Source of the DNA: Flavobacteriales bacterium
Lineage (GTDB): Bacteria; Bacteroidota; Bacteroidia; Flavobacteriales; TMED113
Assembly: GCA_002863085.1 (NCBI GenBank)
Contig: PKDT01000056.1
Coordinates: 1 to 52,401, forward strand
Reading direction: 5' to 3'
Length of the DNA stretch: 52,401 bases
Shown: positions 24,916 to 35,056 of the stretch, piece after piece
Layout of the letters: the number at the start of each line of letters is the position of its first letter
How positions within the stretch are numbered: position 1 is the stretch's first letter
Notes under the pieces: model-generated
Database searches by the model: none
Told to the model about the DNA's origin: nothing
Seen by the model: the letters and a program-made list of their open reading frames with translations, nothing else
Made by a program: the position numbers and the translations under genes

Positions 24916-27900
24916 TTACCTAATCATTAATGATCTATTTACTACATCTTTGTGAGTAGCTACCGTTACTTGGTATAAACCAGAAGGATAGTTTGCTACA
25001 TCAATTGTAGTTGAAGATAAGGTAGATATATCCCTTGAGTCAACTATTTGACCCAATTGGTTAATCACCATAATTTTAGCATCAACTTTATTGTTTGAGT
25101 CTAGTTCGACTGTAATAAAATTATCAGCTGGATTTGGATATACCAGTAACTCAAAAGATGATGTTACTTCTTCAATAGATAAATATTCACATGATCCGTC
25201 GTCAGTGTTAGCATTTGGATCGTAATTAATTGCTTCAGGATCAGTACAGCCCTCGATAATGTCTTCGCAATCTCCAACACCATCACCATCTGAGTCAATT
25301 AAGTCAACATATTCAAATGTTCCGTCACCATCGACATCTACACATTCTTCACATGAAGGATTAGAAATTGTGGATCCATTTGATGCATACAGGCAAGATC
25401 CGTCGTCATAATTTGCTTCTCCGTTGTAGTTGCAAGCAAACATATCAGTACAACCCAAGTTCCAATCAACACATAGGGTATTATCTATACATCCCGTTGC
25501 AACAGCTTCTTCATTGTAATTGAAACTCCAAGGTTGACCACAACCATATGGTAAACATGTACCATTATCTACACTTGCAATGGTGTAAACAGTACCGTCA
25601 TCACCAACTGGAACATTATAGGTGATTGCAATACCGTCAGAACCTAACACTGGGAATCCGTCAGCATCTGCAATGAAATAGGTTGTGTTACAAGCGTCTG
25701 GGTTAGTACAACCAACAAAGTCAAGTTCGTCGCAAACTCCATTCTCATCACAATCATTCAAGCAATTACCATCACAATCAAGGTATGACTGTTCTGGATA
25801 AATACATGCAGTTGAGAAATTTGCATCAGGATTGTAGTTACAAGCAGTTTCTTCGGTACAGCCTTGGATGAACATTACACACCACTCATTTTCAGCGTAC
25901 ATAGCGTTTGATAGGCAATCGTAACCTGTTGCAGTGTAGTTTTGCATTGACGGGTCGCTACATCCAATAACTCCATCACAAGATCCATCATCATCTGTTG
26001 CGGCAGGATCATAGTTACATGCCAACATATCAGTACAGCCATCAACTTCATCCGCATCACAAACACCGTCATCGTCAGCATCCCCATCGTTTAGCGCTAC
26101 AAAATTTCCATCCGTGTCATATTCACACTCATCACATGCATCAGGCACCAGACAAGAACCGTCGTCATCTGTTGCATCGGAGCTAAAGTTACATGCTGTA
26201 GAATCAGTACAACCTTCAACTTCATCAGCATCACAAACGCCATCTTCATCCGTGTCAATAGCTACTAACTCGCCATCATCGCCACACTCGCTGCAGTTAT
26301 CAACTGGCAAATTACATGTACCATTATCTGCATTAGCGTCAGCATTGTAGTTACATGCATCCTCATTCATACAACCTAATACGTATTCTATACAAGACGT
26401 GTTATCTATACAGTCTGCTGTGCCTACACAATCATCACCTTCACAACCTTCCACAGGAACTGGGTTATAGTTAAACATGAAAGGAAGATCACAACCAACT
26501 ACACCCTCACAAGACCCATCATCAAATGTTGCATCGGACATGTAATTACATGATAACACGTCCATACATCCACCCATTATTTCCTTGCAAACGCCATCTA
26601 CGTCTGTGTATCCATCTTCGCAACCATCACAATCAGCATTTGGGACAGGGAAAACGCACTCTCCATTGTCTGAATCCATATAATTACATGCAGTCTCATC
26701 AGTGCAGTTGTCAATTAAATCACAAGTACTGTCCATGTCTGTATCTAGACATGAACCATCTCCAAGATATCCGTTATTGTTACATGATCCATCATCGTCA
26801 GTAGCATCGGAGTTGTAGTTGTATGCCGTATCATCTGTACAGCCAGCAACCTCGTCGTCGTTACATACGCCATCACCATCTGTATCACCATCTGTAAACT
26901 CTCCCGTTTCTTCATCACAGTCAGTGTCACAAGTATCGTCAAAACAAGATCCATCGTCATCTGTTGCATCTTCGTTGTAGTTACATACCGTTTCATCTGT
27001 ACATCCAGGAACTTCATTTTCATCACAAACACCATCACCATCTTCATCATTTATACATTCATATGTTCCGTCACCATCTAAATCACAAGTAAATGGAACA
27101 TAATCATCTGTTTCACACGCAACGCAATCAGTTTCTCCATCGTCATCTGTGTCAAAATTAATTTCATTTCCAACACAGTCGTCGACTAAGTCACAGATAC
27201 CGTCAGAGTCATCATCAATGCACTCACCATCACAGTCGAAGCCAGGCGTTGGGTAATTACAATTTCCGTCAGATGTGTTAGCCGCAGAATCAAAATTACA
27301 AGCAGTGTTATCAGTACAACCTAACAATACCGGCTCGCAGCAATCTCCAACTCCGTCACCGTCTGTGTCTGGACAGTATGTGTTGCAATCAGCACAAAAA
27401 TTACCAGTTGCATCTCCGTTAGCTAACTCTGTATCAAGACATCCTTCAGTAACCTCTTCACATGAACCATCATCATCAGTTGCAGCTTCATCGAAGTTAA
27501 ATGCAGTTGAATCAGTACAACCTGCAATCTCTGCTTCGTCACACACTGTATCACCATCTGTGTCAACACATGAACCATCACAGTTAAAACCATCTAGTGG
27601 GTATTCACATGAACCATCATCAGTGTTGTTTGCCTCATCATAATTGCATGCTGTTTCATCAGTACAGCCATATACAAATGGTACACAAGAGCCATCATCC
27701 TCTGTTGCTGTAGCATCATAATTTGTTGCAGTTGAATCAGTACAACCATCAACTTCATCATCTGCACAAACGCCATCATTGTCAGCATCATTCAAAGGAT
27801 CGTTAGGACATTCATCAACATCGTCACAAACACCATCAGAATCTAAGTCAACACATGAACCGTCGCAGTTAAATCCAGCTGGTGGATAAGTACACGAACC

Positions 27901-28482
27901 ATCATTTTCTGTAGCCGATGAATCAAAGTTACATGCAGTCTCGTCAGTACAACCTTCAACTTCAACATCATCACAAACACCGTCACCGTCTGAATCTTCA
28001 GCGCATTCACCGTCACAAACTCCAATTGCGTCTTCAGTTCCAACGCAATCGTCTACTACATCACAAACGCCATCATTGTCAGCATCCTCGCAAGAGCCAT
28101 CGCAGTTGAAATTTTCTTCAGGATAGGTACAAGAGCCATCATCAATTGTGGCAATAGCTAAGCCTGCAGTACCGTCGTCATTTGTTACGGCAAAAGAAAA
28201 TGTATTACAAGCTGTTTCATCAGAGCAACCAACCTGGTTGTAATCACAAACACCATTGGAGTCCTCATCTAAACAAGTGCCATCACAATTGTCTAAAAAG
28301 TCTGAATTTTGTTCACTTACTTGTGCATAAGTACATGAACCGTCATCTGTATTAGCAGAGATGTCAAAGTTACAAGCTGTATCATCAGTACAACCTAAAA
28401 CTTCACAACTGTCCTGAGCAACAGATGTATAAGAGCCTAAAAATAGGATTGATAATAAAAATATATAATGTTTTTTCATCAT
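24916..28482 (-). CDS. Giant GCTD-repeat acidic surface protein with T9SS sorting domain
   Basis: About 1188 residues. It starts with a signal peptide (MKKHYIFLLSILFLG...VAQ) and ends with a canonical type A T9SS C-terminal domain (VYPNPADNF, INQLGQ, YPSGLYQV). In between are about 20 modules of the form GCTDxTACNYDxxATDDDGSC, including roughly four divergent ones that begin GC-DLP or GC-GQP and carry a C-I/V-xN pair. Aspartate-rich runs such as DxDGDGVCDD resemble thrombospondin type 3 calcium loops. The cysteines are paired in every module and suggest disulfides. It is probably a secreted or cell-surface, Ca-binding, cysteine-knotted adhesin or stalk protein. Start ATG at 28480-28482 (or 28477-28479); an upstream in-frame start at 28515 would precede the likely promoter. 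Confidence 0.85.
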   Translation of the reverse strand: MMKKHYIFLLSILFLGSYTSVAQDSCEVLGCTDDTACNFDISANTDDGSCTYAQVSEQNSDFLDNCDGTCLDEDSNGVCDYNQVGCSDETACNTFSFAVTNDDGTAGLAIATIDDGSCTYPEENFNCDGSCEDADNDGVCDVVDDCVGTEDAIGVCDGECAEDSDGDGVCDDVEVEGCTDETACNFDSSATENDGSCTYPPAGFNCDGSCVDLDSDGVCDDVDECPNDPLNDADNDGVCADDEVDGCTDSTATNYDATATEDDGSCVPFVYGCTDETACNYDEANNTDDGSCEYPLDGFNCDGSCVDTDGDTVCDEAEIAGCTDSTAFNFDEAATDDDGSCEEVTEGCLDTELANGDATGNFCADCNTYCPDTDGDGVGDCCEPVLLGCTDNTACNFDSAANTSDGNCNYPTPGFDCDGECIDDDSDGICDLVDDCVGNEINFDTDDDGETDCVACETDDYVPFTCDLDGDGTYECINDEDGDGVCDENEVPGCTDETVCNYNEDATDDDGSCFDDTCDTDCDEETGEFTDGDTDGDGVCNDDEVAGCTDDTAYNYNSDATDDDGSCNNNGYLGDGSCLDTDMDSTCDLIDNCTDETACNYMDSDNGECVFPVPNADCDGCEDGYTDVDGVCKEIMGGCMDVLSCNYMSDATFDDGSCEGVVGCDLPFMFNYNPVPVEGCEGDDCVGTADCIDNTSCIEYVLGCMNEDACNYNADANADNGTCNLPVDNCSECGDDGELVAIDTDEDGVCDADEVEGCTDSTACNFSSDATDDDGSCLVPDACDECEYDTDGNFVALNDGDADDDGVCDADEVDGCTDMLACNYDPAATDDDGSCDGVIGCSDPSMQNYTATGYDCLSNAMYAENEWCVMFIQGCTEETACNYNPDANFSTACIYPEQSYLDCDGNCLNDCDENGVCDELDFVGCTNPDACNTTYFIADADGFPVLGSDGIAITYNVPVGDDGTVYTIASVDNGTCLPYGCGQPWSFNYNEEAVATGCIDNTLCVDWNLGCTDMFACNYNGEANYDDGSCLYASNGSTISNPSCEECVDVDGDGTFEYVDLIDSDGDGVGDCEDIIEGCTDPEAINYDPNANTDDGSCEYLSIEEVTSSFELLVYPNPADNFITVELDSNNKVDAKIMVINQLGQIVDSRDISTLSSTTIDVANYPSGLYQVTVATHKDVVNRSLMIR

Positions 28483-28502
28483 GTTAAATTTTAAATTTGT
28501 TG

Positions 28503-28510
28503 CAAATCTA
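28503..28510 (-). promoter_or_regulatory. Candidate -7 box for the GCTD-repeat gene
   Basis: On the minus strand this reads TAGATTTG, matching TAnnTTTG. It lies 20 bases upstream of the proposed ATG, giving a very short leader, and it excludes the more distal start codon at 28515. No TTG sits at the usual 19-23 base distance. Confidence 0.4.
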
Positions 28511-28515
28511 GTCAT

Positions 28516-28773: not shown

Positions 28774-29517
28774 ATGAAAATCCGCAATCTTTACATAATT
28801 TTATTATTACCTGTAATTGCTTTTTCGCAGCAAAGCCCATGCGGTGAAAGGCCTGTAAAACCAACTAAGCCTGAAATGCAGTCATCAAAAGAGTTTAGAA
28901 ATTCGGAGACAATAAAAAAATACAAAACCGATTTAAAAAAGTGGAAGGAGTGTGTTAGTCCCCTAGCTATTTCTCAAAGAGATGAAGAAAGAATTAGCCA
29001 GGAGCAAAAAAAACGTGAAGAAAAAGAGAAGGCTGAAAAGTTAGAAGCTCTTAACAATTGTGGTGAAAAACCATCCAAACCTAAAAGACCAAAGGGCTTG
29101 AGTGTTGACGATTTTAGAAAAACTCAGGAACATAGTGAGTATCGAAAACAACTGAAAGAATGGAAAAGGTGTATGAGCCCTCAGCAACTAACTCAACCAG
29201 TTTTTTCTAAAAAAGAAAATAACAAAATTAGTAACTGCGGGGAAAAACCCACCAAACCTTACAGAGCTAAAGGAACAAACAACCAAGATTACAGAGACTC
29301 TCAAGCCTACAAAAATTACCGTGAACTTTTTAAAAAGTGGAAAAATTGTGAAGACAATTTTGAAAAGGCCATCTTATGGGGTGATTGCGGGGACAAACCC
29401 CAAAAACCATTCAGGGCTGATGGCACAAACAACCAAGTGTACAGGGAATCAAAAGAATTCCAAGCATACAAAGAAAGAGTTAAAGCATGGAAACAATGTT
29501 TAGAAAATAAGAACTAA
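28774..29517 (+). CDS. Secreted protein with four 38-residue two-cysteine repeats
   Basis: I do not recognise this family. The 247-residue protein has a signal peptide ending at about AFSQ (16-19). Four repeats follow, each running from a CG to a WKxC: C23-C60, C96-C133, C155-C192 and C205-C242. Every repeat has exactly 37 residues from first to second cysteine. The pattern is CG-E/D-K/R-PxKPxR near the start, an aromatic YR or FR at mid-repeat and W-K-x-C at the end, and is likely one disulfide-closed helical hairpin per repeat. Residues 62-92, between repeats 1 and 2, are charged and coiled-coil-like. It lies 4 bases before the TonB receptor gene and heads that operon, so a role at the outer membrane is inferred. 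Confidence 0.85.
   Translation: MKIRNLYIILLLPVIAFSQQSPCGERPVKPTKPEMQSSKEFRNSETIKKYKTDLKKWKECVSPLAISQRDEERISQEQKKREEKEKAEKLEALNNCGEKPSKPKRPKGLSVDDFRKTQEHSEYRKQLKEWKRCMSPQQLTQPVFSKKENNKISNCGEKPTKPYRAKGTNNQDYRDSQAYKNYRELFKKWKNCEDNFEKAILWGDCGDKPQKPFRADGTNNQVYRESKEFQAYKERVKAWKQCLENKN
28840..29499 (+). repeat. Four in-gene 114-base repeat units
   Basis: Units span 28840-28953, 29059-29172, 29236-29349 and 29386-29499, each encoding 38 residues from cysteine to cysteine. Units 3 and 4 are clearly the most similar in DNA, sharing the GGAACAAACAACCAAG or GGCACAAACAACCAAG block, which points to a recent duplication. Units 1 and 2 are more diverged and are separated from each other by a charged linker. 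Confidence 0.85.
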
Positions 29518-34648: not shown

Positions 34649-35056
34649 ATGAAAAGATTTTTAATAATACCATTAGCCATCACACTGGTAACGTCTATTC
34701 CCGTCAAAGGCCAAAAACACTATAAGAATTTTCACGGACAAAAATATTGTTCTAACAACCTTAACTTTACCGGTGGATTTATTGCAGGACTTTTTCTCAG
34801 CGAAGCCTTCAACTCAGCTAATAACAAAAGATATATGTTCTTTAAATATAATTACAAGACAAGTAAATGGAGGTTGGTTGAAGACAGTTACAAGTATGAA
34901 TATGGGTATAGAAACCGACCTGTTGAAGCAAGATTTGAAAACCCAAATGGTGGAAGAGATTTTTTTGTAAAAATCAGTCGAAGAGGCAATTGGTTTATTG
35001 ATGCTCCAAGGAAATTTAAGGGCATAATTTCAAAAAAAGTTAAACGCAACTTATAA
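34649..35056 (+). CDS. Unknown exported basic protein
   Basis: A 135-residue protein with a signal peptide ending near VKGQ (22). The mature part is rich in tyrosine, asparagine, lysine and arginine, with a short hydrophobic GGFIAGLFL stretch. No family recognised. It is separated from the LRR gene by 89 bases containing a TAATTTTG box (34596-34603) that could be its own -7 element. Its 3' end faces a small minus-strand frame. Confidence 0.6.
   Translation: MKRFLIIPLAITLVTSIPVKGQKHYKNFHGQKYCSNNLNFTGGFIAGLFLSEAFNSANNKRYMFFKYNYKTSKWRLVEDSYKYEYGYRNRPVEARFENPNGGRDFFVKISRRGNWFIDAPRKFKGIISKKVKRNL

Follow-up and report, generated by a model that had tools for sequence, protein, structure and literature searches.

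A protein of 247 amino acids, encoded by the open reading frame 28774 to 29517 (+) of the window (the whole stretch of DNA analyzed, 52,401 nucleotides; contig PKDT01000056.1 of a Flavobacteriales bacterium), contains a cysteine-bracketed unit of exactly 38 residues four times over. The unit is, judged from sequence searches, a member of no named family, and in the genomes sampled, the repeat family is confined to a single marine family with small genomes. The reading that we favor, with a probability of about 0.4, is that these units form a bead array that would dock, via a conserved ladder of basic residues, on an anionic partner in the envelope. The features of the gene are as follows.

28774 to 28827, + strand: Sec-type signal peptide, MKIRNLYIILLLPVIAFS (sequence read by eye; same layout in three homologues)
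28840 to 28953, + strand: unit 1, CGERPVKPTKPEMQSSKEFRNSETIKKYKTDLKKWKEC
28975 to 29055, + strand: charged linker, residues 68 to 94, predicted to be a single long helix (whole-protein AlphaFold2 model, pLDDT about 70)
29059 to 29172, + strand: unit 2, CGEKPSKPKRPKGLSVDDFRKTQEHSEYRKQLKEWKRC
29236 to 29349, + strand: unit 3, CGEKPTKPYRAKGTNNQDYRDSQAYKNYRELFKKWKNC
29350 to 29385, + strand: 12-residue linker between units 3 and 4, the sole linker of constant length across the four homologues, where it joins the last two units and has an invariant W-G just ahead of the last one
29386 to 29499, + strand: unit 4, CGDKPQKPFRADGTNNQVYRESKEFQAYKERVKAWKQC (modeled alone at pLDDT 90.6)

The eight cysteines lie at residues 23, 60, 96, 133, 155, 192, 205, and 242, and the cysteine-to-cysteine distance inside each of the four units is exactly 37. 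When eight cysteines were placed at random 200,000 times, equal spacing in all four pairs never arose. These four exact spacings, pointed out in a preliminary description of this DNA, were confirmed and recur in all 17 units of four genomes, every unit being exactly 38 residues long (four units in three of the proteins, five in the other). Eight positions are invariant in the 17 units, namely, C1, G2, P5, K7, P8, Y28, W35, and C38; the motif claimed earlier thus stands for CG, KP, the central Y, and W..C, but the K of WKxC is kept in only 14 of 17. Linkers measure 12 to 35 residues, and the last is always 12. Lysine or arginine occupies positions 4, 7, and 29 in 17/17 units, position 20 in 16/17, position 36 in 15/17, and positions 10 and 33 in 14/17 (background average, 25%; the units are kin, so binomial values overstate the significance). 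The pI of the mature protein is 9.0 to 9.6 in all four members.

The protein is apparently exported, as the word "secreted" in the preliminary description had implied. By eye, the first 18 residues read as a signal peptide of the Bacteroidetes type with cleavage before QQ. No lipobox was seen by eye at the first cysteine; that residue (23, after SQQSP) is C1 of unit 1. A T9SS sorting domain is absent, as only five residues follow unit 4, and Pfam gave no Por_Secre_tail match. The cellular location is probably the periplasm.

Homologues were found in 4 of 12 genomes and 4 of 7 genera of the window's own family (39 to 50% identity to the window copy); the remaining family genomes are 52 to 88% complete, and some absences may be gaps. 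A profile search of genome contigs returned only the same three relatives (metagenome-assembled genome records of Flavobacteriales bacterium, isolates NAT501, NAT88, and NAT99), and a single-sequence query of genome contigs gave no match. The preliminary description had proposed a profile search of the 38-residue unit across Bacteroidetes; within the samples covered, homologues occurred only in the window's own family. Whole-protein and unit profiles found nothing credible in 398 genomes of the order, 395 of the class, and 396 of the phylum, these being samples searched with a first-pass filter that rare or very diverged relatives could escape. Weak distant matches (E values of 0.002 to 0.1 per genome) were taken as chance, being partial, of 5 to 21 bits, and mostly in short frames; rescored and read in six frames, they held no complete C1...C38 unit, and none was repeated. 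The viral contigs, phages, and plasmids searched contained no homologue.

The earlier statement that the unit has no named family also holds, as Pfam, NCBIfam, PHROGs, PADLOC, and PDB chains searched by sequence all gave nothing significant. The best Pfam-A score was 16.9 bits against a cutoff of 28 (DUF5946, spanning the linker and unit 2 in one of the four members), and the best NCBIfam score was 11.4 against 517.7. Pfam matches of single members to ATP-cone (E value, 0.0066) and HdeA (E value, 0.23) were dismissed as chance. Foldseek found nothing significant in either library, and no solved structure, short chains being hard for this program; phage Rz1, the top viral fold match at an E value of 3.6, was set aside as evidence. 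In a literature search, no description of the 38-residue unit was found.

Structure prediction of one unit, which had also been proposed, supports the earlier picture of a compact unit of fixed length. AlphaFold2, with an alignment of 17 sequences, gave a confident model of an extended arm followed by helix (pLDDT, 90.6; pTM, 0.65), with the helices at 20 to 25 and 27 to 46 of the 47-residue construct. At full length (pLDDT, 76; pTM, 0.30), the units are confident and their relative positions unconstrained, which would fit beads that have no fixed mutual orientation; the last linker is modeled within a helix continuous with unit 3. Conservation in unit residues 1 to 13 has a three-residue period (peak at 120 to 130 degrees), as would be expected of a polyproline-II arm. 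In the helix, the period of 100 to 110 degrees is modest (reached by 1,320 of 20,000 shuffles), with a conserved hydrophobic face at 25/28/32/35 flanked by basic residues at 29/33/36. The expected lengths of arm (28 Å) and helix (27 Å) agree, so C1 and C38 could meet, and we infer that the proline arm would pack back on the helix as a hairpin.

The disulfide closure argued for in the preliminary description, here a C1-C38 bond, is likely as an inference. Cysteines of the mature proteins were found solely as C1/C38 pairs in all four members, which argues for such a bond. This reading is weakened because DsbA (PF01323), DsbB (PF02600), and VKOR (PF07884) had no match in the window's genome (95.9% complete), the same models matching in control genomes, and because the lineage's exported-like proteins have no excess of even cysteine numbers (18 even and 25 odd; a rough count over few loci with a heuristic signal-peptide filter).

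The mechanism that we propose begins with an exported bead-on-a-string protein of four or five beads, probably periplasmic, in which each bead would be one polyproline-II/alpha hairpin of 38 residues. Residues 1 to 12 (C-G-x-K-P-x-K-P-x-R) would form a three-fold proline arm, packing back on the helix (about 20 to 38) via the face made by Y/F25, Y28, L32, and W35. C1 and C38 would meet at the open end of the hairpin, probably as a disulfide, and basic residues 4, 7, 10, 20, 29, 33, and 36 would form a ladder along one side of the bead. Because of that ladder, multivalent docking of the array on a putative anionic partner, either an envelope polymer or an acidic protein, seems the most likely function. 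Joined into a single claim, that of a lineage-specific repeat domain in which disulfide-closed polyproline-II/alpha hairpins with a basic ladder make up a tandem, multivalent envelope-binding array, the proposal is tentative and on the whole doubtful.

In the pancreatic-polypeptide (PP) fold and in designed PP-alpha miniproteins, a proline-rich extended arm is followed by an alpha helix. The predicted unit would resemble the PP fold in this layout, in prolines three apart, and in aromatics on the helix, as an analogy only; unlike the PP fold, it is bacterial and tandem, with an invariant cysteine at both ends. Neither whole proteins nor single units had a Pfam match that would link them to the PP fold, and no PP-fold entry was returned by Foldseek, which is weak on short chains. 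If the hairpin reading is true, the family would be a case in nature of bacteria using a very small folded unit of the polyproline-plus-helix type in tandem; its 17 sequences would reveal the residues that such a unit needs, and it could serve protein design as a compact scaffold. As it stands, it is one unnamed family of exported repeat proteins added to the small-genome marine Flavobacteriales, an ordinary finding until the partner is known. Another small helical extracellular domain of bacteria, YARHG, is defined by sequence and has been proposed to bind peptidoglycan in the envelope (PMC3355149). Its motif differs from that of the 38-residue unit, and in Pfam searches the repeat protein did not match this domain.

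Several other functions were weighed against docking. The protein might bind nothing specific and serve as a structural spacer or scaffold in the envelope, its lysines conserved for fold stability and solubility. A modeled bead array with a helical linker would suit that role, as would the patchy presence (4 of 12 genomes) and the lack of a conserved neighbor, but the invariant K7 and the K/R at 4 and 29 in 17/17 units seem beyond its needs, and we think it unlikely, if by no means far-fetched. A periplasmic metal-binding or metal-bridged array, in which the cysteines bind metal between beads or together with other residues, would be consistent with both cysteines being invariant in 17/17 units and with the missing DsbA, DsbB, and VKOR matches; a unit that offers just two cysteines and no invariant His, Met, or acidic residue (H16 occurs in 8/17 units) makes it improbable. 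There is little chance that the protein is a precursor processed within the variable linkers, yielding several 38-residue ring-closed peptides of signaling, inhibitory, or antimicrobial function. The fixed unit length, the variable charged linkers, the presence of four or five units, and their basic and amphipathic nature all speak for it; the last linker, however, is constant in length and modeled in a helix continuous with unit 3, no conserved cleavage motif was seen, and no peptide exporter or immunity gene was recognized among the neighbors.

The preliminary description had also linked the protein to ligand capture for the TonB receptor encoded downstream. The receptor (with Plug and barrel domains) starts at ATG 29522 on the same strand, and the 4-base gap to the end of the repeat gene at 29517 is as described; co-transcription in the window's genome is likely because of this arrangement. 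Adjacency in the window carries little weight, though, because short distances between genes are the rule in these small genomes. The check proposed was whether homologues always precede a TonB receptor; the receptor adjoins the repeat gene in only one of four genomes, and in the three relatives the downstream gene encodes an LTD/CotH protein (L009), a 130-amino-acid protein with no family (L010), or an unrelated secreted protein (L011). In genomes G003, G008, and G011, which yielded no repeat gene, receptor orthologues (55 to 60% identical over nearly the whole length) lie behind unrelated genes. In G002, the repeat gene is followed by a gene for something other than a receptor, and a C-terminal fragment of the receptor lies on another contig. 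A partnership in ligand capture is largely refuted by this separate distribution, and we regard it as very improbable. Nor does the protein fit a receptor-associated surface lipoprotein, SusD-like or otherwise, given a neighboring TonB receptor in one genome of four and no lipobox seen by eye. Upstream of the repeat gene, metG recurs in two relatives, and a methionine-gamma-lyase-like gene and a GCTD-repeat protein (below) are also found in one; these are regional synteny and not a functional unit. The neighborhood indicates no ligand or partner.

As for the history of the array, units 1 and 2 each have their closest match in the unit of the same number in the relatives, with protein identity of up to 60% for unit 1 and up to 65% for unit 2; the array therefore predates these genera. 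Units 3 and 4 of the window share 58% protein and 69% DNA identity; their description as recent duplicates at the DNA level is therefore too strong. In the window, G002, and G001, and not in G007, units 3 and 4 are closer to each other than to their counterparts in other genomes. This pattern agrees better with concerted evolution of the last two units, in a four-unit array that is itself old, than with a recent single duplication.

Three further groups of exported proteins were observed. Giant proteins made of GCTDxxACNYDxxATxDDGSC-type repeats are encoded in the window (24916 to 28515, −) and in two relatives (L011:3157-7221 and L010:982-7203), with more than 130 cysteines in the two relatives. 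The window member carries a T9SS sorting tail (Por_Secre_tail), its sole part matching Pfam. Like the 38-residue repeat protein, it is exported, cysteine rich, tandem, and found in the same genomes; it differs in its acidic D/N-rich repeats, its T9SS sorting domain, and its motif, and no sequence relation between the two was seen. The window's genome exports very cysteine-rich proteins, yet without a DsbA, DsbB, or VKOR family match. A conserved small exported protein with no Pfam match recurs in three genomes (window 34649 to 35056, L010:8776-9168, and L068:6940-7362), once directly after the repeat gene. Thyroglobulin type-1 domains, which are mainly known from animal proteins, occur in exported proteins of related genomes (PF00086; L066:11693-12931, E value of 5e-20, and L068:5867-6601, E value of 2.5e-19).
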